Source of the DNA: an uncultured Arthrobacter sp.
GTDB taxonomy: Bacteria; Actinomycetota; Actinomycetes; Actinomycetales; Micrococcaceae
Length of the DNA stretch: 64,000 nt
Direction: 5' to 3'
NCBI RefSeq assembly: GCF_947493765.1
Contig: NZ_CANLSZ010000008.1
Coordinates: 1 to 64,000 of the forward strand
Part shown: positions 42,346-64,000 of the stretch, piece after piece
Layout of the letters: each line of letters opens with the position of its first letter
How positions within the stretch are numbered: the stretch's first letter is position 1
Notes under the pieces: generated by a model
What the model saw: only the letters and a program-made list of their open reading frames with translations
Database searches by the model: none
Told to the model about the DNA's origin: nothing
Made by a program: the position numbers and the translations under genes

Positions 42346-43737
42346 ATGAGACCACCCCTGGTGCGCGGGCGCGACGGCGTGATCGCCGGAGTGTGCGCCG
42401 GACTCGCCGTCCACCTGGGGATCGCCGCGGGCTGGATCCGCCTCGCCATGGTCCTGCTCACCCTCGCGTCCGGGGCAGGCGTGGTCCTCTACGGCTGGCT
42501 GTGGCTCTTCGTCCCCACCACCGCCGACCGGGCGGACCTCGACCGCCGGAGCGGCCCTGCCTCGTACATGCGCGACGCCGGCCCCGCCGCAGTCACGCCT
42601 CCGGGTGGGCGGCAGGTCGCGGGACGGGACGCCGGCGCCGGCGCGACAGCACCGGGGCCGCCGCAATCACGCCCGACGCCGACCCAGCCCGGTCCGGGCG
42701 AGCCGGAATCCTGGGGTGAGCGGGCGCGCCGGGCCGGTCGGCGGGAGATCCTGTTCGGCGCGGGACTGCTCATCGCGGCCGCGGTGCTCCTGGCGCAGGT
42801 GCTCGGCGTGCAGGTGGACTGGGCGTTCCTCGTCCCGGTCTCCGTGGTCGTCATCGGCGCGGCGCTCGCCTGGTCCCAGCTCGACGACGCCCGGCGGGCC
42901 CGGCTGGTCAGCCAGGCCCGCGCCGGGAGGCCCGGCTGGGGCGTGCGCCTCGGGGCGGGCATCGTCCTCGTCGTCGCCGGTGTCCTCGTGGCACTGTCCA
43001 GCAGCACGTCGCTGTCCCTGACGATGACCACCCTGATCGCCGTCGTCGCCGTCCTCGCCGGCGTGGGCCTGGTCCTCGCCCCCTGGGGCCTGAAGTTCTG
43101 GCGCGATCTGGAGAGTGAACGGGCATCGCGGGTGCGGGAGGCGGAGCGGGCCGAGATCGCCGCCCATCTGCACGACTCGGTGCTGCAGACGCTCGCCCTG
43201 ATCCAGAACAGGGCGGACTCCGAGACCGACGTGCTGCGCCTCGCCCGGGCCCAGGAGCGGGAACTCCGTCGATGGCTGTTCGCCGATCCTTCCCGGGACC
43301 CGGGCAGCCTGTCCGAGCGCCTCCGCGCGACGGCCGGCGAGATCGAGGATCTCTACGGCCATCCCGTCTCGGTGGTCGCCGTGGGCGATGCCGCCCTCGG
43401 ACCCGCCGAGGACGCCCTCTCCCAGGCGGCGAGGGAGGCCGTGCTGAACGCCGCGAAGCACGCGGACGTGGCCGTCTCGGTGTACCTCGAGGCCGGCCCG
43501 GACAGTATCGAGGTGTTCGTCCGGGACCGTGGTCGCGGCTTCGATCCCGACCAGGTGCCGGCCGACCGCGCCGGGATCCGCGACTCCATCCGCAGCCGGA
43601 TGCTGCGCTACGGCGGCTCGACAGAGCTCAGGACCGGTCCCGACGGCACCGAGGTGCACCTCCGGCTCCCGCGGACCGCCGCCGGTACCGACCGGAGCGG
43701 AGCCTCCGGGGCGGGGAGCGGGAGGGACGCCGGATGA
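42346..43737 (+). CDS. PspC-domain sensor histidine kinase
   Basis: A 463-residue kinase. The N-terminus is a PspC domain (VIAGVCAGLAVHLGIAAGWI), then a Pro/Gly-rich linker, and two helix pairs near residues 140-245. The HisKA_3 box ERAEIAAHLHDSVLQTLALI carries the phosphorylated His; the ATPase domain shows AAREAVLNAAKHADVAVSVY (N box) and FVRDRGRGFDP (G1). It is the NarL-type kinase for the following regulator, joined by ATGA overlap. Likely input is envelope stress through the PspC domain. Confidence 0.87.
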   Translation: MRPPLVRGRDGVIAGVCAGLAVHLGIAAGWIRLAMVLLTLASGAGVVLYGWLWLFVPTTADRADLDRRSGPASYMRDAGPAAVTPPGGRQVAGRDAGAGATAPGPPQSRPTPTQPGPGEPESWGERARRAGRREILFGAGLLIAAAVLLAQVLGVQVDWAFLVPVSVVVIGAALAWSQLDDARRARLVSQARAGRPGWGVRLGAGIVLVVAGVLVALSSSTSLSLTMTTLIAVVAVLAGVGLVLAPWGLKFWRDLESERASRVREAERAEIAAHLHDSVLQTLALIQNRADSETDVLRLARAQERELRRWLFADPSRDPGSLSERLRATAGEIEDLYGHPVSVVAVGDAALGPAEDALSQAAREAVLNAAKHADVAVSVYLEAGPDSIEVFVRDRGRGFDPDQVPADRAGIRDSIRSRMLRYGGSTELRTGPDGTEVHLRLPRTAAGTDRSGASGAGSGRDAG

Positions 43738-44408
43738 CCCGGGAACCGACGGGCCCGGCAGGCGGCGCGCGCGTCTCCGTGGTGATCGTCGACGACCACG
43801 GCATCTTCCGGTCCGGCCTGCGCGCCACGCTGGGCGCGACGATCGACGTGCTCGGTGAGGCGTCCACGGTGGAGGAGGCCGAGGCGGTCGTCCGGGCCAC
43901 CGAGCCCGACGTCGTGCTCCTCGACGTCCACCTGCCGGGCGGACGCGGGGGAGGCGGGGCGGAGGTCATCCTCCGGTGCGCCGCGTCCGGTGCGGGGTCC
44001 CGCTTCCTGGCCCTGAGCGTCTCGGACGCCGCGGAGGACGTGGTCGCCGTGATCCGGGCCGGCGCTCGCGGCTACGTCACGAAGACCATCTCCGGGCCGG
44101 ACATCACGGCCGCCGTCCACCGGGTCGCCACGGGCGATGCCGTCTTCTCACCCCGACTCGCGGGGTTCGTCCTCGATGCGTTCGGCACCGCAGCGGTCGC
44201 CGTCGACGACGAACTCGACCGCCTCTCCGCACGCGAACTCGAGGTCATGCGCCTGATCGCCCGCGGCTACACCTACAGGGAGACGGCGCAGGAACTGTTC
44301 ATCTCGATCAAGACGGTCGAGACCCATGTGTCCGCCGTGCTCCGCAAACTCCAGCTCTCCTCGCGCCACGAGCTGACCCGCTGGGCCTCGGAGCGACGGC
44401 TCCTCTGA
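43734..44408 (+). CDS. LuxR/NarL-family response regulator
   Basis: A 224-residue regulator. The receiver has VSVVIVDDHGIFRSGLRATL, the phosphorylated Asp in DVVLLDVHLPGG and the Lys in GYVTKTISG; the output is a GerE domain, LSARELEVMRLIARGYTYRE and KTVETHVSAVLRKLQLSSRH. A Gly-rich insertion (GGRGGGGAE) follows the Asp. Partner of the PspC kinase; target genes probably include the divergent PspC genes. Confidence 0.9.
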   Translation: MTREPTGPAGGARVSVVIVDDHGIFRSGLRATLGATIDVLGEASTVEEAEAVVRATEPDVVLLDVHLPGGRGGGGAEVILRCAASGAGSRFLALSVSDAAEDVVAVIRAGARGYVTKTISGPDITAAVHRVATGDAVFSPRLAGFVLDAFGTAAVAVDDELDRLSARELEVMRLIARGYTYRETAQELFISIKTVETHVSAVLRKLQLSSRHELTRWASERRLL

Positions 44409-44461: not shown

Positions 44462-45898
44462 CTACAGGCCGGCCAGGGCCCCCTCGAGGGCCGGCCAGGC
44501 AGCGCCGGCCCCCACACCGCCCACCAGGACGACGCCTCCCGCGACGAGGGCCACGGTGGCCGGCCATCGCCGAGGCGCCGGACCGGGCCCGGGCGCGTCC
44601 TGATCGCACTCCGCGGGCCGGAAGACGGGGGCGAGCCAGCGCAGGTAGTAGAACAGGCTCGCTGCCGTATTGAGCGCCGCCACCACGACCAGCCAGGCGA
44701 AACCGCCGTCCCAGCCCGCGGTGAAGGTGGTGAGTTTCCCGACGAACACGACGGTGGGTGGCGTGCCGACGAGGCTCAGGAGGCAGACCACCAGGACGCC
44801 GGCCAGCCACGGGCTCCTCCGCGCGAGGCCCCGGTACCGCCCGAGCTCGTCGTGTCCGGTGGCGGCGACGACGGCGAAGGCGCCGAGGTTCGACACGGCG
44901 TAGGCGGCCAGGTAGAAGAGCAGGGAGGGAAGCGCCAGCGCACCGGTCCCGACGACGGCCACGGGGACCAGCAGGTAGCCCGCCTGGCTGACCGTGGACC
45001 AGCCCAGCAGGCGGCGGACGTCGGTCTGGGAGAAGGCGGCGAAGTTGCCGATGGTCATGCTGGCGGCAGCCAGGACGGCGATCAGCAGGGCTGCGTCCAC
45101 GGTGGCAGGGATCGTGGTGAGGAGCCGGTAGGCCGCGACGAGTGCCCCGATCTTCGGCACGGTGGTCAGGAACGCGGCCACGGCGACCCCCGCGCCCTGC
45201 GCGGCATCGGGGACCCAGAAGTGGCCCGGCACCGCACCGGCCTTGAAGGCGATCCCGGCCAGCACTCCGAGGAGACCCGCGGCGACGGCGCCCGACGGTA
45301 CGTCGACCAGCCCGGCACGCAGCTGGTCGTAGGCGCTCGCCCCGGCGAGGGCGTACAGGATGGTGGCGCCGAGGAGCAGGGCGATCCCGAGGAAGGCGCC
45401 CAGGAGATAGGTCTTCAGGGCGGCCTCGGCGGCGCCGGGTGAGCGGCCCATGCCGATCAGGGCGTAGAGGGGGATGCTGGCGAGCAGATAGGCCACTGCG
45501 AGGATCAGCAGGTCGTCGGTCCCTGCCAGCACCATGGCGCCCAGCGCGGAGAGGAGCATCAGCGCGTACGTCTCGCTCTCCCTCGGGGTGCCGCCGAGTT
45601 CGTCACCTCCCAGGCAGATGACCAGGAGCGTCGCCGAGCAGATGACCAGGCGCGCGACGGCGGTGGGGGTGTCGAGCGCGAAGCTGCCCTCGAACACCGT
45701 CCGCGCCGTCCCGGACAGTCCGGCCCCGGCGCTGACCGCACCCCCGGCCAGCGCGGTGAGCGCGATCAGGCGGGTGAGGCCCTGCCGGGTCCGGGGCAGG
45801 AAGGAGCCCGCGAGCAGGGCGGTGATCGCCCCGGCGAGCACGATCATCTCCGGGAGGAGGGCCGCGAAGTCCGCGTCCATGCTCATGCCGGCATCCAC
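44462..45898 (-). CDS. nuoN: NADH-quinone oxidoreductase subunit N-like antiporter
   Basis: A 478-residue Mrp/Nuo antiporter-like subunit with fourteen helices. AFKAGAVPGHFWVPDAAQGA holds the conserved Lys and His-rich broken helix, and the TM5 region reads LLILAVAYLLASIPLYALIG, where the Glu expected in proton-pumping NuoN (LELLSLPLY) is replaced. Last gene of the operon. GTG at 45898 is uncertain; ATGs at 45886 and 45880 are alternatives. It lies convergent with the PspC two-component system, 53 nt apart. Confidence 0.85.
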   Translation of the reverse strand: MDAGMSMDADFAALLPEMIVLAGAITALLAGSFLPRTRQGLTRLIALTALAGGAVSAGAGLSGTARTVFEGSFALDTPTAVARLVICSATLLVICLGGDELGGTPRESETYALMLLSALGAMVLAGTDDLLILAVAYLLASIPLYALIGMGRSPGAAEAALKTYLLGAFLGIALLLGATILYALAGASAYDQLRAGLVDVPSGAVAAGLLGVLAGIAFKAGAVPGHFWVPDAAQGAGVAVAAFLTTVPKIGALVAAYRLLTTIPATVDAALLIAVLAAASMTIGNFAAFSQTDVRRLLGWSTVSQAGYLLVPVAVVGTGALALPSLLFYLAAYAVSNLGAFAVVAATGHDELGRYRGLARRSPWLAGVLVVCLLSLVGTPPTVVFVGKLTTFTAGWDGGFAWLVVVAALNTAASLFYYLRWLAPVFRPAECDQDAPGPGPAPRRWPATVALVAGGVVLVGGVGAGAAWPALEGALAGL

Positions 45899-45901
45899 GG
45901 G

Positions 45902-47398
45902 TCAGCGTCCCACGAGCTCGACGACGGCTGCCGCCGCCGGCTCGACGAGGTCCAGCAGCGGGCGCGGGAAGATGCCGATGAGCAGTGACAGGAGCAGGAG
46001 GGGGCCGATGGACAGCAGCTCCGGTGCCCGCAGATCCGTGACGTCGAAGGCCTTGCCGCGCACCGGCCCGGTCAGGAGGCGTTGCGTGGCGAGGAGGAAC
46101 AGGGCGGCCGTGACCAGGATGCCGGGCAGCGCGAGTGCGGTCCAGGGAACCGTACCGATCGCCCCGGCGAAGATCTGGAACTCCGCGATGAACCCGCTGA
46201 AACCCGGCAGGCCCAGGGAGGCGAACGCCCCGACGGCGAAGAGGACGGAGAACTTCGGTGCCACCGCGGCGATCCCGCCGAACGACCCCATGTGGTAGGT
46301 CCCCGCCCTGCCCCGCAGCACCCCGGCCAGCAGGAACAGGGCGGCCGTGATGAGTCCGTGGCTCACCATCTGGGTGAGTGCCCCCGTGACCGCCACCTGC
46401 CGCGCCTGCGCATCGGTCCCTCCGGCCACCCCGGCGGCTCCGACCGCGAGGACCACGTAGCCCATGTGGTTCACCGAGGTGTAGGCGATCATCCGCTTGA
46501 GATCGGTCTGGGCCAGGGCCACCAGGGCTCCGTAGAGCACGGAGACGATCCCGACGACGATGATGACCCAGGCCCAGTCCCGCCAGGCCTCGGGGAGCAT
46601 GGGCATCGCGATCCGGACGAAGCCGTACGTGCCGAGCTTCAGCAGGATCCCGGCGAGGACCGCGGATCCGATCGCCGGTGCGTCCGTGTGGGCGGGTGGG
46701 AGCCAGGTGTGGAAGGGGAAGGTGGGGGTCTTGATGGCCAGCCCGAGCAGGATCGCCCCGAGGACGAGCCCGCCTGCCAGGGGACTGCCGTCCAGCGGTG
46801 CCGCTGCGGCCAGCTCGACCATGTCGAAGGTCCGCGGTTCCGAGGCGAGGTAGAGCCCGATGAAGCCCAGGAGCAGGGCGAGGGATCCCAGGAAGGTGTA
46901 CAGGAAGAACTTCAGGGCGGAGGAGGCGGCATTGTCGTGCCCCCAGCCCGCGATCACGAAGTACATCCCCACGATCGACAGGTCGAAGAAGAGGAAGAAC
47001 AGGATGAGGTCCTGTGCGGCGAACACCCCCAGGCACGAGGTCTGCAGGAACAGGAACAGGGCGGCCTGCGGACGTGGCCTGTCCTGTTCCCGGACCGCGT
47101 AGACGGCGCAGGCGAGGAACACCACGGCGGTGAGGGCCAGCAAGGGCAGGGACAGTCCGTCCACCCCCACGTGATAGCTGCTGCCCACCGTCGGGATCCA
47201 CGCCACCTGCTCCTCGAACGCCACACCGCCGTCGCCCGGAGGCTCGAACGCCGCCCACAGCGCAGTGACGAGAACCGCCTCCACGGCCGTGACCGCCACC
47301 CACGCCCACCGTGCCGCAGCGTCCGGGATCCGCGGGAGGGCCGCCAGGACGAGGGCGGCGGCAAGGGGCAGGAAAACGACGAGACTGAGCACGGTCAC
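45902..47398 (-). CDS. nuoM: NADH-quinone oxidoreductase subunit M-like antiporter
   Basis: A 498-residue antiporter-like subunit. IKTPTFPFHTWLPPAHTDAP with IGSAVLAGILLKLGTYGFVR is the classic NuoM block with the central Lys. The TM5 motif reads LFFDLSIVGMYFVIAGWG, so the usual Glu is Asp. The GTG at 47398 overlaps the nuoL stop (GTGA). Sits between nuoL and nuoN in normal order. Confidence 0.87.
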   Translation of the reverse strand: MTVLSLVVFLPLAAALVLAALPRIPDAAARWAWVAVTAVEAVLVTALWAAFEPPGDGGVAFEEQVAWIPTVGSSYHVGVDGLSLPLLALTAVVFLACAVYAVREQDRPRPQAALFLFLQTSCLGVFAAQDLILFFLFFDLSIVGMYFVIAGWGHDNAASSALKFFLYTFLGSLALLLGFIGLYLASEPRTFDMVELAAAAPLDGSPLAGGLVLGAILLGLAIKTPTFPFHTWLPPAHTDAPAIGSAVLAGILLKLGTYGFVRIAMPMLPEAWRDWAWVIIVVGIVSVLYGALVALAQTDLKRMIAYTSVNHMGYVVLAVGAAGVAGGTDAQARQVAVTGALTQMVSHGLITAALFLLAGVLRGRAGTYHMGSFGGIAAVAPKFSVLFAVGAFASLGLPGFSGFIAEFQIFAGAIGTVPWTALALPGILVTAALFLLATQRLLTGPVRGKAFDVTDLRAPELLSIGPLLLLSLLIGIFPRPLLDLVEPAAAAVVELVGR

Positions 47399-49326
47399 CT
47401 CACGAGGAGCAGGAGGACGAGCGCCGCCACGAGGAACGCGGTGGCCTGGGCATAGTAGTGGTGGACCTGACCGGTCTGGGGCCGGCGGACCAGACCGCCG
47501 AAGCGGCGCGCGCCCCGACCCGTCGCCCGCACCACGGCGTCGACGCCATCGGCATCGATCCGTGCCGTCGCCGTGGCGCTCCGGCGCCCACCGCGCGAGG
47601 CCGCCGCCACGGCCCGGTCGAGCCCGGCGTCGTCGAAGCGGGCGGCCCCCCGTCCCGCTCGTGCAGCGAGGAGTGCGCCGGCCAGTACGCCGCGATCCAC
47701 CACGCGGTCGTCGAAGCGTGCCAGGGCCACCGAGAGCGAGAGGACGGGACGGACCACGAGCGCGTGCACCGCGGTCTCGAGGCCGAACCACCGGAGGGCC
47801 CACCGCGGCTCCACCACGCCGAACCGGGCCACGACGGCGAGCACGATCAGCGCCAGCACGGCGGAGAGGATCAGTTCTCCCCGGGAGGCTGCGGGGGAGC
47901 CCCCGTCCCCGAGGGCGGCACGGACGGAGTCGGCCAGCGGGGGGAGTGCCAGGACGCCGAGACCCACCGCACCGACGGCCAGGACGACCAGGGGGATCCG
48001 CTGCCGGAGGCCGATCCGGCGGGTGCCCCGTTCCTCGGTGTCCCAGGTGCCGGAAGTACCCGGCCCGGGGCGACGCCACACGAGGACCAGGGCCTTGCCC
48101 GCGTACGCCGCGGAGAGCGCCGACGCCACGAGTCCCACGCCGTACAGTGCCGGTGATGCTTCCAGTGCAGCCGCGAGTACCCCGTCCTTGGTCGCCCACA
48201 GGGCGAGCGGAGCCACCCCGGCCAGGCTCAGCGCACCGAGGCTGAAGGCGACGCCCACCAGGGGCCAGTGGCGCCCCGCCCCGCGCAGGCCCCTCAGCTT
48301 CTTCGTCCCGAGCGCGGAGAGCCAGGCGCCCGCGACCAGGAACAGGAGGGCCTTCGTCGCCGCATGGGCGATCAGGTGCGCCGTCCCGCCGGCCACCGCG
48401 CCGAGGCCCGCGCCCAGCACCACGAAACCGAGCTGCGCCGCCGTCGACGCGGCCAGCAACTGCTTGAGGTCCTTCTGCGCCACGGCGACGACCCCCAGGA
48501 CCAGCGCCGTCGTGACGCCCACCCACGAGGTGACCGGGCCGGCCCATCCCGTCGCCTGGAGCAGGGGCGCCACACGCAGCAGCAGGTAGCCGCCCATGGC
48601 GACCATGGCCGCCGAATGGAGCAGGGCGCTCACCGGACTCGGGCCCTCCATGGCCCGCGAGAGCCAGAAGCTGAACGGCAGCTGGGCCGCCTTGCCCAGG
48701 GCTGCCAGGAGGATCCCGGCGGTGATGACGGTCCTCCAGCCCTCGGGGGCGGCGGACAGCTCCCGGAAGGCGGCACCTGTCCCTGCGGCGAGCGCTGCTC
48801 CTGCCGCCACGTAGAGCCCGAGATCGGCCGCCCGGGTGGTCAGGAAAGCGGTCAGTCCCGCCGACACCCGGTGCTGGTCCTGCCACCGGAAACCGATGAG
48901 GGCGTAGGACATGGCGCCCATGAGCTCCCAGGCGAAGAGGAGGGCCGGGAGGGTGGTCGCGGTCACCGTCACCACCACCGCGGCGACGAAGAGGAGCATC
49001 AGTCCGTGGAACCCTGCCGGCGGCGAGACCTCCGCCGCCGTGCCCGAGGCCGAGGCGAAGATCAGGACCAGCAGGGCCACGAGCGCCACCGACGGGAGGA
49101 CGAGGGCCGAGAGGGCATCGACGGCCAGGCCGAAGCCGGCGCCGCCGATGAAGGGGAGCTCCAGCGCCGGACGGCGCGCCCCCGCCACCACGGACAGCAC
49201 GAGGACCAGCGAGACCACCGACACGGACACGGGGGCGGCCGACGTCGCCAGGCGGCGCCCGCCCAGGCAGAGCACCGCTCCGGCCAGCGCCGGCAGGCCG
49301 ACGAGGGACCACAGCAGCACGCTCAT
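47395..49326 (-). CDS. nuoL: NADH-quinone oxidoreductase subunit L-like antiporter
   Basis: A 643-residue antiporter-like subunit. LLFAWELMGAMSYALIGFRW keeps the TM5 Glu; GKAAQLPFSFWLSRAMEGPS, then PVSALLHSAAMVAMGGYLLL, carries the TM7 Lys and TM8 His. The C-terminal part has the long helix region expected of NuoL, though the sequence there is Ala/Arg-rich. ATGA overlap with nuoK. Confidence 0.88.
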   Translation of the reverse strand: MSVLLWSLVGLPALAGAVLCLGGRRLATSAAPVSVSVVSLVLVLSVVAGARRPALELPFIGGAGFGLAVDALSALVLPSVALVALLVLIFASASGTAAEVSPPAGFHGLMLLFVAAVVVTVTATTLPALLFAWELMGAMSYALIGFRWQDQHRVSAGLTAFLTTRAADLGLYVAAGAALAAGTGAAFRELSAAPEGWRTVITAGILLAALGKAAQLPFSFWLSRAMEGPSPVSALLHSAAMVAMGGYLLLRVAPLLQATGWAGPVTSWVGVTTALVLGVVAVAQKDLKQLLAASTAAQLGFVVLGAGLGAVAGGTAHLIAHAATKALLFLVAGAWLSALGTKKLRGLRGAGRHWPLVGVAFSLGALSLAGVAPLALWATKDGVLAAALEASPALYGVGLVASALSAAYAGKALVLVWRRPGPGTSGTWDTEERGTRRIGLRQRIPLVVLAVGAVGLGVLALPPLADSVRAALGDGGSPAASRGELILSAVLALIVLAVVARFGVVEPRWALRWFGLETAVHALVVRPVLSLSVALARFDDRVVDRGVLAGALLAARAGRGAARFDDAGLDRAVAAASRGGRRSATATARIDADGVDAVVRATGRGARRFGGLVRRPQTGQVHHYYAQATAFLVAALVLLLLVR

Positions 49327-49625
49327 CCGCTCAGGTCCGTCGCCATGTCCGTCATGTCGGACTTCCTGGACCGGTTGAGCAGCGTCGCGACGGCGAAGCC
49401 CATGGCCATCTCCACGGTCATCGCCGCGATGACCACCAGCAGGAGGACCTGACCGTCGGGGGCCGGCGAGAGGAACCACCACAGACCCGCCGCGGCGAGG
49501 ATCACGCCGTTGAGCATCAGCTCCAGGCCCATCATCACCATGACGACGACCTGCTGGGACAGCGCCCCGTAGACGCCGACGGAGAACAGGGCGGCCGCGA
49601 TCACCAGGACGGTATCGAGCGTCAT
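49323..49625 (-). CDS. nuoK: NADH-quinone oxidoreductase subunit K
   Basis: A 100-residue, three-helix subunit of the membrane arm, with VMMGLELMLNGVILAAAGLW containing the TM2 Glu and VIAAMTVEMAMGFAVATLLN containing the TM3 Glu, both of the proton path. Overlaps nuoL and nuoJ by ATGA at each end. Confidence 0.9.
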   Translation of the reverse strand: MTLDTVLVIAAALFSVGVYGALSQQVVVMVMMGLELMLNGVILAAAGLWWFLSPAPDGQVLLLVVIAAMTVEMAMGFAVATLLNRSRKSDMTDMATDLSG

Positions 49626-50191
49626 GCCTGCTCACCCCGCTCGCCGGGACCCCTCGGCGTCGTCGCACGCAGGTCGTCGCCGAATCTGTCGTAGCGTCCG
49701 CGCGGGTTGGCCAGGACCAGCGCGGCCACGAGCGTGGCGAACAGGAGCGGGCTGACGGTGAGCATGACCAGCATCTTCGAGCCCATGACGGCCTCCCCCA
49801 GCGACCGGGTCAGCTCCCCGGCCGGTTCACCGCGGCGTTCGGGCCAGTCGACGAGCAGCGCGCCCCCCGCCAGGACGACGAACACCCCGAGGGCGAGGAC
49901 CAGCGATCCCACCCTGTTGTGCACCATGCTCATGGGCATGAGGGCCGGGTTCATGCCCATGAACATGATCATGAAGATGGCCATCACCGCCATCTCCATG
50001 ACCATCATCAGGATGGTGATCACCCCGATGTACTCGAGGTTCAGCAGCAACAGCATGGCGCCGACGGCCACGAAGGAGACCGCCAGGGCATAGGTGGCCC
50101 GGGCCATCGAATCCACCCGGAACACGGCGATGCCCGCGGCGACGGAGATCACGGCGAGGACCCAGAAGACGGCATCGAGCACGGGACTCAT
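49622..50191 (-). CDS. nuoJ: NADH-quinone oxidoreductase subunit J
   Basis: A 189-residue, five-helix subunit. NLEYIGVITILMMVMEMAVM corresponds to the NuoJ TM3 with its pi-bulge (usual sequence FLAVVQILVYAGAIMVLFVF); here it is unusually Met-rich: MEMAVMAIFMIMFMGMNPAL then MPMSMV. The Met clusters recall those of other subunits in this operon. ATGA overlaps on both sides. Confidence 0.85.
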   Translation of the reverse strand: MSPVLDAVFWVLAVISVAAGIAVFRVDSMARATYALAVSFVAVGAMLLLLNLEYIGVITILMMVMEMAVMAIFMIMFMGMNPALMPMSMVHNRVGSLVLALGVFVVLAGGALLVDWPERRGEPAGELTRSLGEAVMGSKMLVMLTVSPLLFATLVAALVLANPRGRYDRFGDDLRATTPRGPGERGEQA

Positions 50192-51120
50192 CGGACCACC
50201 ACCACACTGACGAGAAGGAGCTGGAGCAGGACTGCGGGCAGCACGACGATCCAGGCGACCTCCGCCAGACGGTCGGGCCGTACGACGGGCAGGAGCCGCC
50301 GCACCCCGACGAGGATCGCCAGGACGGCGAGGGTCTTCACGAGCGTCCACACCCACGCGGGGGCGAACGGACCGGATCCGCCCCCGAGGAACAGGGCGAC
50401 GGCGAATCCGGCCCCGGCGCTCAGCAGCGCGTACCGGCCCGCCAGCAGCAGGAGGCGGTCGACGCCCGACAGCTCGGCGAGGACACCGCCCGCGATGTCC
50501 CCGCCCGCGGCCGCACCGAAGGGCCCCCAGACGGAGAAGGCCACCACTCCTGCACAGAAGACGAGGAAGGCCACCGGCATCCAGACCACGAACCAGAGCT
50601 CCTCCTGGGCCGCGACCACCTCACCCACCCGCAGGCTCCCGGCGGCAATGGCCGGGCCGGTCAGGGCGAACATCAGCGGCAGTTCGTACGAGAGCGCCTG
50701 TCCGAGGAAGCGGTACCCGCCGATCAGTGCGTGGGCGCTGTTCGCTCCCCACCCCACGAGCCACACCAAAGCCCACACCATGACGTCCATGGCGTTGAAC
50801 CACACCACGCCCACGGAGAGATCGGCGACGGTCCAGGCGCCGAGGGGGACGACCGCGACCTTCAGCAGTGCCACCACGAGCAGGCCCACGACGCCGATCC
50901 GCCACAGCAGGGAGTCGGCGGCCACGATCGTCCGGCGCCGCTGCCTGAGCAGCCGGGCACCCTCCCACACCGGTGCAGCTGCTCCCGGGAGGGCACGTCG
51001 ACCCTGGAGCCGCGCACCCACGGCGCCGTCGAAGCCCGCGGCCAGCACAGCGACGACCCCGAGGAGCACGGTGGCGATGACGGTGCCCAGCGGACCCACC
51101 TGGAGGATGCCGTCAGCCAC
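50188..51120 (-). CDS. nuoH: NADH-quinone oxidoreductase subunit H-like protein
   Basis: A 310-residue, eight-helix subunit. GGYRFLGQALSYELPLMFAL is the typical NuoH core. The loop that in canonical NuoH reads EAESELVxGxxxEYSG is here AAAGGDIAGGVLAELSGVDR, so the acidic quinone-channel residues are mostly lost. GTG at 51120 overlaps the stop of the preceding gene and has GGAGGG upstream. The altered loop suggests an electron partner other than ubiquinone-type coupling. Confidence 0.82.
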   Translation of the reverse strand: MADGILQVGPLGTVIATVLLGVVAVLAAGFDGAVGARLQGRRALPGAAAPVWEGARLLRQRRRTIVAADSLLWRIGVVGLLVVALLKVAVVPLGAWTVADLSVGVVWFNAMDVMVWALVWLVGWGANSAHALIGGYRFLGQALSYELPLMFALTGPAIAAGSLRVGEVVAAQEELWFVVWMPVAFLVFCAGVVAFSVWGPFGAAAGGDIAGGVLAELSGVDRLLLLAGRYALLSAGAGFAVALFLGGGSGPFAPAWVWTLVKTLAVLAILVGVRRLLPVVRPDRLAEVAWIVVLPAVLLQLLLVSVVVVR

Positions 51121-52207
51121 GATCGGAACCCTCCGCGGCGACAACCGCCGTGTCCAGTCCGAGGGACGCGATCACGAGCCGTGCGCCCGCGACGTCGAGA
51201 CCCGTGATCAACCCCGGTATCCGCTCCAGGCGTTCGGTCTCGGCAGCGGGGGAGCGGAGGGGAGCCGCGGTGTCGGCATCGCCGAGCAGTGCGGTCCTGG
51301 CGCCGTCCAGCAGGGCGATCAGCCGTTCGTGGACACCCGGCAGATCCTGGACGGACCAGCTCAGCGTCCGGGATCGGCGGAGCCGCTCACCGAGACGCTC
51401 CACCTCCGCCGCCACCTTCCCGATCGGCACGTCGTCCAGCACCGCGTCCCGAAGGCGGATCGCCCGCAGCGACAGCCGTTCGAGATCCAGCAGAGCCAGC
51501 ACGCCGGCCGCCTGATCGCAGTACCGTGCGCTCTCGGACCGCGCGGTGCCATGCAGTGCCCCTGCACCGTCATGGGTCCGGTCCAGGTGCCACCCGGCGG
51601 CAGGGAGGACCTCCACGGCGGCGTCGGTGACGACGTCGCCCTGGAGCGAGCAGCGCACCACGAGTCCCGCGGGCCAGTGCTGCAGGACCGGACCCAGCCG
51701 GACCTGCAGCACATCCAGGTCGAGGCCGTCCCGGTCGGTTCCTCCCTCGGCCAGACCGATCCCCCCGGGCATCGGCATGTCGATGTCCCCGTCGTCCATG
51801 TCCTCGTGGTCCATGTCCTCGTGGTCCATGTCCCCGTGCTCGTCGGGAGTCCCACCGGCTGCTGCGGTCCGGGCCTCGGCGTCCTCGCGCTGAACCGTGC
51901 CGTCGAGCAGCGCTCGCCGGGACCCGTCGAGCAGCCCGGGCACCTGATCCCCTTCCGTCGCACCGATGCGCACTCTCGGACCGGGCAGCTGGTCCCAGAC
52001 CGGGTCGACGATCTCGCTGAACTCCGGGCCCGGTGTCCCGCAGGTGAGCAGGATGTCGGCGTCGGCCGGTGAGTTCGCGGGTACCCAGCCCCGCCGGCGG
52101 AGTTCACGCTCGGCGGTCATCCGGGTACGGCCCCATCCCGGGACCTCGACGACGAGGACATGGGGGCGCCGGACAGCCATGCGGGCGACGACGGCCGTCA
52201 GGTCCAC
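51113..52207 (-). CDS. Degenerate NuoB/NuoD-like soluble subunit with Met/His/Asp-rich segment
   Basis: A 364-residue protein in the place where nuoB, C and D are expected. Residues about 40-90 resemble the NuoB fold (NSPADADILLTCGTPGPEF, then VWDQLPGPRVRIGA), yet only one Cys is present, so the N2 cluster cannot form. Residues 122-147 read as acidic/Met/His repeats (DMDHEDMDHEDMDDGDIDMP), a possible metal-binding segment encoded by a 15-bp repeat. GLDLDVLQVRLGPVLQHWPA resembles regions of NuoD-like proteins; the NuoD quinone His is not apparent. GTG at 52207 (AAGGGG upstream) is preferred to ATG at 52180. Confidence 0.55.
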   Translation of the reverse strand: MDLTAVVARMAVRRPHVLVVEVPGWGRTRMTAERELRRRGWVPANSPADADILLTCGTPGPEFSEIVDPVWDQLPGPRVRIGATEGDQVPGLLDGSRRALLDGTVQREDAEARTAAAGGTPDEHGDMDHEDMDHEDMDDGDIDMPMPGGIGLAEGGTDRDGLDLDVLQVRLGPVLQHWPAGLVVRCSLQGDVVTDAAVEVLPAAGWHLDRTHDGAGALHGTARSESARYCDQAAGVLALLDLERLSLRAIRLRDAVLDDVPIGKVAAEVERLGERLRRSRTLSWSVQDLPGVHERLIALLDGARTALLGDADTAAPLRSPAAETERLERIPGLITGLDVAGARLVIASLGLDTAVVAAEGSDRG

Positions 52208-52548
52208 CGGAGTGCCCCTTCGCGCCAGGCCCAGACGACGCCGGCCATCAGGACGCCCAGGAAGACGAACATCTCGATGACGGCGCCGATCCCGGTATCG
52301 GCGACGATGACCGCCCACGGATACATGAAGAGCATCTCCACGTCGAAGGCCAGGAAGAGCATGGCCAGGGGATAGTACCGCGCGTGGTAGCGGGACAGCG
52401 CGTGCTCGGACGGTTCCCAGCCGGACTGGAAGGGCAGGCTCGTCAGCGGGTCCCGCGCCACGGTGACGAGCCGTGCCACGCCGTACAGGCACCCCGCGAC
52501 GAGGAGCGCGACGAGGAGCATGACGAGGATGTTCAGATATCCGGACAC
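52198..52548 (-). CDS. nuoA: NADH-quinone oxidoreductase subunit A
   Basis: A 116-residue, three-helix subunit. SGWEPSEHALSRYHARYYPL is the conserved loop, although the Cys of the usual YECG motif is replaced (SGWEP), and AMLFLAFDVEMLFMYPWAVI keeps the Asp-Glu pair of TM2. GTG at 52548 has CAGGAGG at a good distance; a TTG 30 nt earlier lacks one. First gene of the nuoA-X-H-J-K-L-M-N operon. Confidence 0.87.
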   Translation of the reverse strand: MSGYLNILVMLLVALLVAGCLYGVARLVTVARDPLTSLPFQSGWEPSEHALSRYHARYYPLAMLFLAFDVEMLFMYPWAVIVADTGIGAVIEMFVFLGVLMAGVVWAWREGALRWT

Positions 52549-52686
52549 GACGGCCTCCTGCTGGTCGACGAGCTGCAACGACGGCTGTGCTGATCGGTCC
52601 CGTCCCGCACAGGTCCACGACCCGCCGCGCGACCCGAACGCGCCGCCGCCCGGTGGCTCCGCGAGGAAGGGCTACAGATCGTCGAG

Positions 52687-52692
52687 ACTATA
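52687..52692 (-). promoter_or_regulatory. -10 box of the nuo operon
   Basis: On the minus strand this reads TATAGT, an unusually AT-rich and near-consensus -10 for this genome. It would start a leader of about 130 nt before nuoA. The -35 is unclear. Confidence 0.55.
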
Positions 52693-52707
52693 CCCTATGG
52701 GGGTATA
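52689..52707. promoter_or_regulatory. CsoR-family-type operator overlapping the nuo promoter
   Basis: A perfect 7-bp inverted repeat TATACCC-TATGG-GGGTATA. CsoR/RcnR/CstR tetramers bind such AT-flanked G-tract palindromes. It overlaps the -10 box, so binding would block transcription of the nuo-like operon until a metal (Cu) or persulfide releases the repressor. No csoR gene lies in the window. Confidence 0.6.
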
Positions 52708-60575: not shown

Positions 60576-61643
60576 ATGGACATGGACACTCTGCTGGTCG
60601 AGCCCGCCGGGCTGGAGCAGGTCGAGAGTGCACTCGGGCGGTTCTTCGAGGAGTCCAAGCAGCGCGCGGTCAGGATCAGTCCCGGATACCACGGCCTGTG
60701 GGAGACCCTGGAGCAGTGCACCGCAGGCGGGAAGCGCTTCCGCCCCCGCCTGGTGATGTCCGCCCACCAGATGCTCGGCGGGTCCGACGTCGGCAACGCG
60801 GCCGAGGTCGGCGCCGCGTTCGAGCTGCTCCACACCGCCCTGATCGTGCACGACGACGTCATCGACAGGGACTTCGTCCGCCGTGGGATCCCGAACGTGT
60901 CCGGCCGGTACCGCATGATCGCCGAGAAGGCCGGCCTGAGCCCCGGGGAAGCGCGGCATGTCGGATTCTCCGCGGGAGTCATCGCCGGCGATCTCGCGCT
61001 GTCCAATGCCCACCGCCTGCTGGAGCGGGTGGAGACCACGGCCGGGATCCGGCGCCGGCTGGGAGAGATCCTCGACGAAGCGGTGTTCGCCTCGGCGGCG
61101 GGGGAGTTCCTCGACATCGAGACCTCCTTCGACACCGCCGTCCCGCCCCTCGAGGACATCGTCCACATGGCACGCCTGAAGACCTCGGTCTACTCCTTCG
61201 AGGGCCCGCTGCAGGCCGGAGCGGTGCTCGCGGGTGCGGAGGAGGACGTCATCACCCGGCTGGGTGACTTCGGCCGGGACGCCGGGATCGCCTACCAGGT
61301 GGCCGACGACATCCTCGGGGTCTTCGGGAACGAGACCCGCACGGGCAAGACGAACTGGGGAGACCTCCGCGAGGGCAAGCGCACGGCGCTGATGTCCTTC
61401 GTGTCCACGCGCCCCGAGTGGGAGAGCATCTCGTCCCTCGTCGGCAACCCGGCCATGTCCGCGGCGGACGCCGACTACGTGCGGCGCATCCTCGTGGACT
61501 CCGGCGCCAGGGACTACTCGGCGGACCTGGCCGCCGACTACGCGGCACGAGCCCGCACGCACCTCGAGTCCGACGCCGTGCCGCCCGCCCTGCGTACGGT
61601 CCTCGATCCCGTGGTGTCCGCCGTCGTCGACAGGGTGCACTGA
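60576..61643 (+). CDS. crtE: Geranylgeranyl diphosphate synthase
   Basis: A 355-residue trans-prenyl transferase. First Asp-rich motif IVHDDVIDRDFVRRGIPNVS (DDxxD), second QVADDILGVFGNETRTGKTN; GGKRFRPRLVMSAHQMLGG is the IPP site. It supplies C20 precursors for phytoene. TTTACT at 60564-60569 is 6 nt before the ATG, in a locally AT-rich stretch that may hold an operator. A second ATG follows two codons later. First gene of crtE-crtB-crtI. Confidence 0.92.
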   Translation: MDMDTLLVEPAGLEQVESALGRFFEESKQRAVRISPGYHGLWETLEQCTAGGKRFRPRLVMSAHQMLGGSDVGNAAEVGAAFELLHTALIVHDDVIDRDFVRRGIPNVSGRYRMIAEKAGLSPGEARHVGFSAGVIAGDLALSNAHRLLERVETTAGIRRRLGEILDEAVFASAAGEFLDIETSFDTAVPPLEDIVHMARLKTSVYSFEGPLQAGAVLAGAEEDVITRLGDFGRDAGIAYQVADDILGVFGNETRTGKTNWGDLREGKRTALMSFVSTRPEWESISSLVGNPAMSAADADYVRRILVDSGARDYSADLAADYAARARTHLESDAVPPALRTVLDPVVSAVVDRVH

Positions 61644-62543
61644 GTGGGTATCGACGACTCGCTGCAGCGCTACAGTGCTGCCGCCCTGAAGACCTCCGCG
61701 GAGGTCATCCGTTGCTACTCCACGTCCTTCGGGATGGCCTCGCGCATCCTGGACCGGACCACCCGGGGACACATCGAGGCGGTGTACGCGCTCGTGCGCA
61801 TCGCGGACGAGATCGTCGACGGCGCGGCGGCCGGGGCCGGCCTCACGCCGGACGACGTCGCCCGCCTCCTCGACGACCTCGAGCGCGACACCGAGACGGC
61901 GCTGCGCACCGGTTACAGCACCAACCTCGTGGTCCACGCGTTCGCCGTGACGGCACGCACCACGGGTATCGGCACCGAGCTCACGCAGCCCTTCTTCGCC
62001 TCGATGCGCGCGGACATCGTCCGGAACGAGCACACCCAGGAGTCCTTCGAGCTGTACGTCTACGGGTCCGCCGAAGTCGTCGGCCTGATGTGCCTGCGGG
62101 CCTTCCTGGTGGGACGGCGCGTGACCGACCGCCAGGACGCCGTCCTCTCCGACGGTGCCCGGCACCTGGGCGCGGCCTTCCAGAAGATCAACTTCCTGCG
62201 CGACCTGGCCGAGGACTTCTCCGTCCTCGGGCGCAGCTACTTCCCCGGCATCAGCCCCGGGAGCTTCTCCGAGGCGGACAAGCTCCGCCTGCTGGACGAC
62301 ATCGACGAGGACCTGCGGATCTCCGCCGCCGCGCTGCCAGGGCTGCCCGCGAACGCGCGCCGTGCGGTCTCCCTCGCCCAGGGTCTGTTCGCCGAGCTCG
62401 CCACCAGACTGCGGCGTACCCCCGCCGAGGAGCTCCTCAGGGCGAGGATCCGGGTGCCCAACCCGGTCAAGCTCCGCATCATGGCGAAAGCCTTCACCGG
62501 TCGCGCGGTACCGGAACTCGCCGCGCAGGAGAGGACGGCATGA
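61644..62543 (+). CDS. crtB: Phytoene synthase
   Basis: A 299-residue squalene/phytoene synthase. IEAVYALVRIADEIVDGAAA (DxxxD-type site), YVYGSAEVVGLMCLRAFLVG and LGAAFQKINFLRDLAEDFSV with GRSYFPG are standard. It joins two GGPP into phytoene. GTG at 61644 directly follows the crtE stop, with no spacer, so translation is coupled. Stop overlaps crtI by ATGA. Confidence 0.94.
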   Translation: MGIDDSLQRYSAAALKTSAEVIRCYSTSFGMASRILDRTTRGHIEAVYALVRIADEIVDGAAAGAGLTPDDVARLLDDLERDTETALRTGYSTNLVVHAFAVTARTTGIGTELTQPFFASMRADIVRNEHTQESFELYVYGSAEVVGLMCLRAFLVGRRVTDRQDAVLSDGARHLGAAFQKINFLRDLAEDFSVLGRSYFPGISPGSFSEADKLRLLDDIDEDLRISAAALPGLPANARRAVSLAQGLFAELATRLRRTPAEELLRARIRVPNPVKLRIMAKAFTGRAVPELAAQERTA

Positions 62544-64000
62544 CGTCAGAGCAGAGCGGGCAGGTCCGGGCGGGTGCGCAGGAGGTCGTGGTGATCGGCG
62601 CCGGGATCGGTGGCCTCGCCACCGCGGCCCTGCTGGCGCGGGAGGGCCACCGGGTGACCCTGCTGGAGAAGCGGGACGAGGTCGGTGGCCGCGCGGGGTC
62701 GTGGGAGCAGGACGGCTTCCGCTTCGACACGGGGCCGTCGTGGTACCTGATGCCCGAGGTGATCGACCACTTCTTCAAGTTGATGGGCACGAGTGCGTCC
62801 GAGCAGCTCGACCTCCGGAAACTGGATCCCGGCTACCGGGTGGTCTTCGAGGACGGGCTCGACACCGTGGACGTGCCGGCCGACCGCGAGGCCGTCACGA
62901 AGCTCTTCGAGTCGATGGAGGCCGGGGCGGGCGAGCAGCTCTCGCGGTATCTCGACTCGGCCGAGGACGCCTACGAGATGGCCAAGAAGCGTTTCCTCTA
63001 CTCCACCTTCGAATCCTTCGTGCCGTTCCTCAGGGCGGACGTGCTCAGGCGGCTCCCACGGATCGGCGCCCTGCTCCTGCAGTCCCTGCACTCCTTCGTC
63101 GCCAGGCGCTTCACGGACCCCCGGATCCGGCAGATCCTCGGCTACCCCGCGGTCTTCCTCGGCAGTTCCCCGTTCGACGCGCCGAGCATGTACCACCTCA
63201 TGAGCCACCTGGACCTCGACGACGGCGTGCTCTACCCGATAGGCGGGTTCACCACGCTCATCGCAGCGATGCGCCGCGTCGCGGTCGAGGCCGGCGTGGA
63301 GATCCGGACCGGGGCCGACGTCGTCTCGATCGACACCGACGCGCGCACTCCCGGGAGATCACCCCTGGACCGCCGGACGGCATCGGTCCGCGGTGTCCGC
63401 TACCGGACGGGGGACCGGGAGTCCTCCGTCCCGGCCGATCTCGTGGTCTCCGCGGCTGACCTCCATCACACGGAGACCACACTGCTGCCCGGGGACCTGC
63501 AGACCTATCCGGAGAAGTACTGGCAGAAGCGCGTGCCGGGTCCGAGCGCGCTCCTGCTCTACCTCGGGGTGCGGGGCGGGCTGCCGCAGCTCGAGCACCA
63601 CACCCTGCTGTTCACCACGGACTGGCGCGAGAACTTCGGCAGGATCTTCGGCAGGGAGACCTCCGTCCCGTCACCGGCGTCGCTCTACGTGTGCCGTCCC
63701 AGCGCCACCGATCCCTCGGTGGCACCGGAGGGCCACGAGAACGTCTTCGTGCTCGTGCCGATCCCGGCGGACGTGGGGATCGGCAGGGGCGGCGTGGAGC
63801 GCGGGGGGGACGCGCGGGTCGAGGCGCTCGCCGACGAGGTGATCGGCCAGATCTCCGCGTGGGCCGGCATCCCCGATCTCGCCGAGCGCGTGGTGGTACG
63901 CCGCAGCTATGGCCCCCAGGACTTCGCCGAGGACCTCAACGCATGGCGGGGCACCTCCCTGGGCCCGGCGCACATCCTGCGGCAGAGCGCCTTCTTCCGC
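62540..64000 (+). CDS. crtI: Phytoene desaturase (3' end outside the window)
   Basis: 487 codons are present, open to the last base. FAD loop EVVVIGAGIGGLATAALLAR, LLEKRDEVGGRAGSWEQDGF, RFDTGPSWYLMPEVIDHFF, then YPIGGFTTLIAAMRRVAVEA; the last visible residues, GPAHILRQSAFFR, are close to the family's C-terminal region, so about 30-60 codons are missing. It desaturates phytoene to lycopene, the substrate of the elongase at 37027. Confidence 0.93.
   Translation, partial: MTSEQSGQVRAGAQEVVVIGAGIGGLATAALLAREGHRVTLLEKRDEVGGRAGSWEQDGFRFDTGPSWYLMPEVIDHFFKLMGTSASEQLDLRKLDPGYRVVFEDGLDTVDVPADREAVTKLFESMEAGAGEQLSRYLDSAEDAYEMAKKRFLYSTFESFVPFLRADVLRRLPRIGALLLQSLHSFVARRFTDPRIRQILGYPAVFLGSSPFDAPSMYHLMSHLDLDDGVLYPIGGFTTLIAAMRRVAVEAGVEIRTGADVVSIDTDARTPGRSPLDRRTASVRGVRYRTGDRESSVPADLVVSAADLHHTETTLLPGDLQTYPEKYWQKRVPGPSALLLYLGVRGGLPQLEHHTLLFTTDWRENFGRIFGRETSVPSPASLYVCRPSATDPSVAPEGHENVFVLVPIPADVGIGRGGVERGGDARVEALADEVIGQISAWAGIPDLAERVVVRRSYGPQDFAEDLNAWRGTSLGPAHILRQSAFFR

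Follow-up and report, generated by a model that had tools for sequence, protein, structure and literature searches.

What can be the function of a complex I membrane arm that is encoded without the subunits that would supply it with electrons? This question is raised by a 64,000-nucleotide stretch of DNA from an uncultured Arthrobacter sp. (contig NZ_CANLSZ010000008.1, positions 1 to 64,000; hereafter the window), where seven nuo genes and a gene for a protein termed BD form the single operon nuoA-BD-nuoH-nuoJ-nuoK-nuoL-nuoM-nuoN (44462-52548, minus strand). Judged from the sequence, the operon product is best read as a membrane machine derived from complex I but free of iron-sulphur (Fe-S) clusters, which would export Cu(I) driven by proton inflow; we give this reading a probability of roughly 0.55. 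That the system belongs to copper homeostasis is held with high confidence, the link to copper being strong and the mechanism inferred. Copper is favoured as the transported ion on account of a CsoR-type operator, copper-gene neighbourhoods, a methionine stripe in NuoJ and NuoK, the loss of the Fe-S ligands and the partial loss of the NuoH quinone loop. The operon and its elements are, in the direction of transcription:

52690..52707, minus strand: CsoR-type operator TATACCCCCATAGGGTAT (TAC-X9-GTA), located some 140 bp ahead of the nuoA start codon GTG
52198..52548, minus strand: nuoA-like gene, GTG start (PF00507, 5.5e-27)
51113..52207, minus strand: BD, 364 residues, GTG start; NuoB-like N-terminal domain, His/Met/Asp-rich linker and NuoD-like C-terminal domain, without Fe-S ligands
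51766..51844, minus strand: His/Met/Asp-rich linker (DEHGDMDHEDMDHEDMDDGDIDMPMP) between the two BD domains
50188..51120, minus strand: nuoH-like gene (PF00146, 4.7e-45)
49622..50191, minus strand: nuoJ-like gene (PF00499, 2e-12), with 16 Met columns conserved at ≥90%
49919..50008, minus strand: Met stripe of NuoJ, residues 62-91, in the predicted third transmembrane helix (TM3) and the following loop (M62, 63, 65, 67, 70, 74, 76, 78, 80, 85, 87, 89, H91 and a new Glu66)
49323..49625, minus strand: nuoK-like gene (PF00420, 1.3e-12)
47395..49326, minus strand: nuoL-like antiporter subunit (PF00361, 1.1e-48), pump residues retained
45902..47398, minus strand: nuoM-like antiporter subunit (TIGR01972, over the cut-off), pump residues retained
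44462..45898, minus strand: nuoN-like antiporter subunit (PF00361, 1.8e-50)

Adjacent genes overlap by 4-10 bp except for a 3-bp gap between nuoM and nuoN, and Pfam assigns the products A, H, J, K, L, M and N; the start of nuoJ was placed by comparison with relatives, the gene caller's own choice being 50182. Neither nuoE, F, G or I nor a normal B, C or D was called within the operon. The source genome is Arthrobacter-like, comprises 2,986,442 bases in 31 contigs and is 99.99% complete; it yields no match to the NuoB, NuoC, NuoD, NuoE or NuoF families (E 0.001) in a genome-wide search that did not include NuoG and NuoI. Gene calls and Pfam thereby bear out the first-pass annotation of the window, which had described one tightly overlapping operon of nuoA, H, J, K, L, M and N lacking nuoE, F, G, I and normal B, C and D. 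The look for other nuo genes in the genome that it had proposed returned nothing for the five families searched, and its statement that such a complex cannot oxidise NADH in the known way is supported. Facing nuoN are genes for a histidine kinase with a PspC domain and a response regulator of LuxR type (Pfam; 42379-44408), and the same pair adjoins the operon in two A. echini relatives (L027, 18321-19999; L030, 17856-19873). At the far end of the window (60576-64000), genes for a polyprenyl synthetase and a squalene/phytoene synthase are followed by a desaturase-like frame, seen by eye, and likely form a carotenoid cluster.

The operon is not confined to this genome. In a scan of a genome collection (84,980 species), 286 stretches encode relatives, of which the best 80 were kept, thus not a random sample. 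All of these 80 are actinobacterial by record title, the closest being Arthrobacter echini, and the further carriers include Mycobacterium, Mycolicibacterium, Cryobacterium, Micromonospora, Nocardioides, Dietzia, Gordonia, Kocuria, Janibacter and others. Of 57 genomes from the genus and order, 10 (one of them the source genome) have a BD match. With six loci from relatives the best 80 make up 86 loci, 66 of which have calls for the complete set of eight genes, arranged A-BD-H-J-K-L-M-N. The seven nuo genes are called in 78, 12 of them lacking the BD call only (a simple gene caller was used), while some of the seven calls are lacking in L044, L046, L047, L056, L062, L068, L092 and L119. Because of the 286 relatives and the 66 complete loci, the operon is not regarded as a remnant. 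There is redundancy in the set, L033 and L091 lying on the same contig, L046/L047 and L088/L089 having identical NuoM and many others being close kin, so that Fisher values are descriptive only. A NuoM tree was calculated from the window and every second locus, short ones dropped (41 rows), plus 14 canonical sequences. In it a branch with 100/100 support, whose stem measures 2.0 changes per site, separates the 41 family rows from 13 canonical actinobacterial NuoM and from E. coli, which has a long branch.

Genomes carrying BD need not carry complex I. The NuoF family is present in three of them (G035, G051, G056), and G014 has a match of 54.6 bits, over the cut-off, which may or may not be part of a complex I; no NuoF match is found in G001, G016, G017, G024, G028 and the source genome, all of which have BD. 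The system is therefore not dependent on complex I. Two A. echini genomes contain two operon copies each, one in a window-like chromosomal setting of about 69% GC (L027, L030) and one on a common island of about 60% GC (L028, L029) with DUF6153-like, DUF305, ccdA- and resB-type genes.

The link to copper begins at the promoter. CsoR of S. lividans requires a 5'-TAC/GTA-3' repeat that encloses 9 bp of G-tracts, i.e. TAC-X9-GTA (PMC3902906), which is the arrangement found upstream of nuoA. A TATAGT hexamer resembling a -10 element overlaps the operator by eye; an automatic scan reported no sigma-70 promoter in this region. The source genome contains four TACCC-N5-GGGTA (X9) sites, one inside a coding frame and three intergenic. 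The latter lie between csoR-copZ-copA and a divergent DUF305 gene, ahead of a DUF6153-like gene that is followed by a DUF305/CopM gene, and ahead of the nuoA-BD operon. The longer form TATACCC-gap-GGGTAT has no match when read backwards. Among the 80 loci, 25 carry an X9 site within 2.5 kb upstream of BD, while spacings X6-X8, X10, X11 and X13 are absent and X12 occurs once. Elsewhere in the same loci X9 is found at 1.72 per 100 kb, corresponding to about 3/80 expected, and 34 control loci (667 kb) contain no X9 and two X8 sites. All 28 upstream X9 sites of these 25 loci are located outside called genes, several of them in the gap that separates the operon from a divergently oriented neighbour, which is an HMA/copZ-type, ATPase, DUF305-type or csoR gene (names by eye); at L117 the site is flanked by a CsoR-like gene at a distance of 32 bp and, in the other direction, by the next forward gene at 94 bp. 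By its operator sequence the operon most likely belongs to a CsoR copper regulon, and the site would be bound by CsoR.

Two CsoR-family proteins are encoded in the source genome. One (L039, 9511-9831, PF02583) adjoins copZ-copA and has the copper sensor RicR as its best NCBIfam match, under the model cut-off; the other resides in a rhodanese locus with an X8 site and has no confident name. In that locus (L040, G000:C6, 6871-10408) the second regulator is accompanied by rhodanese-type genes and three X8 sites, probably a CstR-like sulfur regulon and as such a naturally occurring comparison for the spacing of the copper X9 site.

Copper-type genes, verified as seeds by Pfam/NCBIfam, are found in 47 of 87 neighbourhoods as opposed to none of 33 control stretches, the latter (20 chosen 20-kb stretches and 13 canonical nuo loci, L136 omitted) being drawn from the source genome and relatives in genus and order and thus narrower than the test set. 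Copper-type ATPases occur in 19 loci, HMA/CopZ proteins in 24, CsoR in nine, DUF305/CopM in 18 and multicopper oxidases in 15. A BD match is also present in 16 plasmid records, seven of which were opened; the association stands out most clearly on annotated plasmids. Curtobacterium pC1a carries a multicopper oxidase, DUF305, a metal-sensing regulator, an HMA protein and a heavy-metal ATPase, followed by nuoA-BD-H-J-K-L-M-N, with recombinases flanking. On the Pseudonocardia plasmid the operon diverges from genes for a regulator, an HMA protein and an ATPase and is followed by DUF6153 and DUF305. In the Arthrobacter FB24 plasmid it is preceded by a sulfocyanin-like protein, DUF305 and a multicopper oxidase, in M. 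avium pMAH135 it adjoins a heavy-metal ATPase and an HMA protein, and a DUF305 gene lies about 10 kb from the Ornithinimicrobium copy. For the Rhodococcus copy, an incomplete gene table lists no copper gene within 14 kb on either side. Around the partial BD match of the Streptomyces NBC_00080 plasmid (L167), likewise with an incomplete gene table, only nuoA is annotated; this copy looks truncated, the rest seemingly lost. Two side observations concern these islands: on clinical mycobacterial plasmids such as pMAH135 (L159) the operon is found near a nocobactin synthase gene and ISMav6, and an F510_1955 'glycosylhydrolase' recurs in 17 clustered loci (L116, 5037-5876, and 16 others), possibly an unrecognised copper-island protein.

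BD itself is a NuoB-NuoD fusion without Fe-S ligands. No Pfam family is assigned to it; the NuoB signal is weak and restricted to residues 30-82, and the NuoD part is too diverged for sequence alignment and can be aligned by fold alone. None of the cysteines is invariant in 61 aligned BD proteins (L035, whose frame is interrupted by a run of N, was omitted from BD alignments); Cys56 and Cys186 are conserved at ≥90% but lie apart, unlike the NuoB set. At least six His plus Met residues are found in 74 of 78 parsed linkers (the parser skipped L097), the median His plus Met content being 22% compared with 4% in the remaining BD protein. One of the four apparently poor linkers, that of L044, is a parsing slip, this linker being in fact rich. 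The first-pass annotation had taken the 364-residue gene for a NuoB/NuoD-like protein with a DMDHEDMDHEDM repeat and one cysteine. Origin and repeat hold, the soluble subunit being NuoB/NuoD-derived with a metal-binding-type repeat, while the cysteines number three (56, 186 and 230, start residue counted).

Within the membrane the methionines are distributed unevenly. Compared with canonical actinobacterial sets of 10-14 sequences per subunit, the Met content is raised in NuoJ (10.0% vs 3.5%), NuoK (10.1% vs 5.4%) and NuoA (5.1% vs 3.4%) and lowered in NuoH (2.8% vs 3.1%), NuoL (1.8% vs 4.3%), NuoM (2.4% vs 3.5%) and NuoN (2.0% vs 2.7%). The 16 conserved Met columns of NuoJ, 12 of which fall within residues 62-89, compare with three in the canonical protein. 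Conservation at 95% applies to 16 of 18 Met positions in NuoJ as against 22 of 91 Leu/Ile/Val/Phe/Ala positions, and in NuoK to nine of 10 (start Met counted) as against 22 of 50. Residues 62-80 of NuoJ are located in one predicted helix (54-80) in a model of low confidence (pLDDT 65.7); on an ideal helix Met63, 67, 70, 74 and 78 fall within 80 degrees and Met62, 65, 76 and 80 within 60. Glu66 is new, replacing Ala in 83/83 sequences, and the position of E. coli (Ec) NuoJ Tyr59 is occupied by Met63 in 83/83. This tyrosine has been described as essential, situated on the π-bulge of TM3 and standing where MrpA has its essential Glu706, in the domain through which a Na+ path has been traced in Mrp (PMC7419157). 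A site important for cation transport in one branch and for coupling in the other thus appears to have been turned into a soft-metal ligand. NuoK Met29, 31, 69, 73, 75 and 91 are not found in canonical NuoK. In NuoA, numbered from the longer open reading frame with a TTG start at 52578, His59 (83/83; His also in 5/14 canonical sequences), His65 (81/83), Met82, Met85 and Met103 (83/83 each) are conserved.

The proton-conducting elements are largely preserved, as depicted by comparison with the E. coli subunits, whose numbering is used here (counts ignore gaps). NuoL retains Glu144, Asp178, Lys229, His254, His338 and Lys399, position 334 being His in 41/84 and Gln in 39/84. NuoM retains Lys234 (80/81), Lys265, His322, His348 and Glu407, with Asp in place of Glu144 in 80/81. 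Lys247 and Lys395 are retained in NuoN, and Lys217 in 57/81 (Glu in 23); the position of Glu133, a landmark residue, is Leu in 78/81. NuoK keeps Glu36 and Glu72 (84/85), corresponding to Glu35 and Glu72 of the window protein. NuoH retains Glu157, Glu228 and Lys274 and is devoid of Arg37, Asp213, Glu216, Glu218 and Arg291, with the charge swaps Lys233 to Asp and Glu241 to Arg; its N-terminal and loop columns differ between two alignments, so that calls there are alignment-dependent. At the quinone site the NuoH loop is partly lost, and the NuoD part can be aligned only by fold.

Taken together, the loss of electron-carrying parts, the gain of copper-binding-type features and the copper switch render copper efflux most likely. 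Whether another electron donor or a different reaction drives the complex had been left open at first; the evidence now favours copper, most likely as the transported ion and not as an electron donor. In the proposed cycle, CsoR loaded with cytosolic Cu(I) would free the operator, and the operon would be made. The His/Met/Asp linker of cytosolic BD would then gather Cu(I) and hand it to the loop histidines of NuoA, from where it might cross the membrane via the Met-rich TM3 of NuoJ and the Met and Glu sites of NuoK and NuoA, a path replacing the quinone-coupled E-channel. Protons entering via NuoL, NuoM and NuoN would power the uphill export, comparable to Mrp for Na+, and copper arriving outside may be handled by the multicopper oxidase and the DUF305/CopM proteins often encoded next to the operon. 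Export fits best with control by excess copper, a cytosolic linker of copper-binding type at the entry point expected for NADH electrons, a Met path at the coupling site and intact proton channels. The chances are about even that such H+/Cu(I) antiport constitutes a third mode of energy coupling for the complex I superfamily, distinct from both redox drive and Na+/H+ antiport, with the Met path in place of the quinone-coupled E-channel and the fused, cluster-free NuoB-NuoD protein as copper collector and loader.

Several observations weigh against copper export. The linkers of L094, L100 and L111 are poor in His and Met, and the linker chemistry would also be compatible with Ag, Ni or Zn. Methionines in helices can serve packing, and the NuoJ model is weak. 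No perfect X9 site lies within 2.5 kb in 55 of the 80 loci; the X9 pattern read backwards has two sites in the source genome, so that rarity alone is not the argument and position and neighbours are needed. The ATPase and HMA seeds may also pick up Zn/Cd or Hg systems, and 40 of the 87 neighbourhoods contain none of the five families, including that of the window, where no such gene is found within 40-57 kb. The direction, moreover, is read from regulation only.

The same Cu(I) path could also serve copper supply instead of detoxification, whether by import or by delivery to cytochrome oxidase or to multicopper oxidases. The ccdA- and resB-type genes adjoining the L028/L029 copies and the multicopper oxidases beside several copies would suit this, but the promoter carries the site of a repressor that excess copper releases, one that also serves copZ-copA, and we consider copper supply an unlikely alternative. 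Quite unlikely, too, is a copper redox pump, in which BD-bound Cu(I) would pass electrons to quinone, or quinol would reduce copper, at the BD-NuoH interface and thereby drive proton pumping. The NuoB/NuoD/NuoH architecture, the retained residues of NuoK, L, M and N and the multicopper oxidases in 15/87 loci are in line with it. However, the Fe-S ligands are missing, NuoH is devoid of Asp213, Glu216, Glu218 and Arg291 and charge-swapped at Lys233 and Glu241, the NuoD part has diverged beyond sequence alignment, and the Cu(II)/Cu(I) potential is unfavourable relative to menaquinone.

The published reading, a partial NDH-1 pumping protons or Na+ for marine or osmotic adaptation, is improbable. 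Gene order, intact antiporter subunits and occurrence in marine Salinispora, Streptomyces and Kocuria (PMC3314556, PMC4018334, PMC6002675, PMC6676996) are in its favour, yet it offers no driving reaction and leaves the CsoR-type operator, the Met stripe, the His/Met linker and the copper islands unexplained; furthermore, plasmid carriers originate from sputum, soil, sediment and glacier samples, and one published carrier, SM254, from copper-rich fluids (PMC6676996). It appears very improbable that the complex is a copper-gated proton or ion channel, or a device tuning the proton-motive force, whose Met/His sites sense copper and do not carry it. Gating could use these same sites and the pump residues are retained, but nine conserved methionines in one predicted helix, plus those of the loop and later helices, seem excessive for a sensor. 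Decay or misassembly of ordinary complex I, to which the missing subunits and the truncated look of the Streptomyces NBC_00080 plasmid copy (incomplete gene table) might point, is contradicted by the conservation of the operon across many actinobacterial genera, by the position of NuoM on one side of the 100/100 branch and by the invariant residues, and is rejected as next to impossible.

If the proton-driven export of Cu(I) is correct, the complex I fold can draw its power from a soft metal ion or spend it on one, and nature provides a membrane-arm variant that works without quinone chemistry and permits a direct test of the coupling between NuoJ/K and the proton channels. A proton-driven copper exporter would then join Gram-positive copper resistance and the 'marine/osmotic adaptation' reading of the actinobacterial nuoAHJKLMN operon would be replaced.

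The operon as such has already been published. A seven-gene partial NDH-1 in Salinispora was interpreted as marine adaptation by Penn and Jensen in 2012 (PMC3314556), with follow-ups in Streptomyces and Kocuria by Ian et al. in 2014 (PMC4018334), Sun et al. in 2018 (PMC6002675) and the 2019 paper on SM17/SM18 (PMC6676996). In the last of these the genes are listed as nuoA, hypothetical, nuoH-J-K-L-M-N, and the operon is reported in SM254 from copper-rich fluids, interpreted as osmotic stress (PMC6676996). Gene set and order are the same as here; in the available text of these papers an osmotic or marine role is assigned, the second gene is left hypothetical and no tie to copper is made. Kocuria soli (L118) and Micromonospora members belong to the BD operon family, and kinship with the published Salinispora and K. 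flava operons is suggested by gene order and genera. The identity of BD, the copper control, the Met stripe and the copper transport reading were not found in the literature searched.

With complex I (NDH-1) the system shares the membrane subunits and their order (A, H, J, K, L, M, N), the pump residues of L, M, N and K and, in BD, the NuoB- and NuoD-type folds; unlike in complex I, the operon has no C, E, F, G or I, B and D are fused and cluster-free, the NuoH loop is altered, NuoJ and NuoK are Met-rich and the operator is of copper type. With the P1B ATPase CopA it shares the CsoR-type control seen for copZ-copA, and its gain of methionines resembles the RND (resistance-nodulation-division) protein CusA, which uses Met ligands for Cu(I); contrary to both, it has no ATPase domain, is not of RND type and represents a multi-subunit proton machine. 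The Mrp antiporters likewise contain antiporter subunits of the complex I kind, with a cation path beside a NuoJ-like domain, and H+ inflow can drive cation efflux there (PMC7419157). The MrpA-G gene set is not what the operon holds, which is NuoA, BD, H, J, K, L, M and N only; unlike Mrp it has no MrpE, F or G but contains NuoH, A, M, N and BD, and at the position of MrpA Glu706 it carries a methionine.

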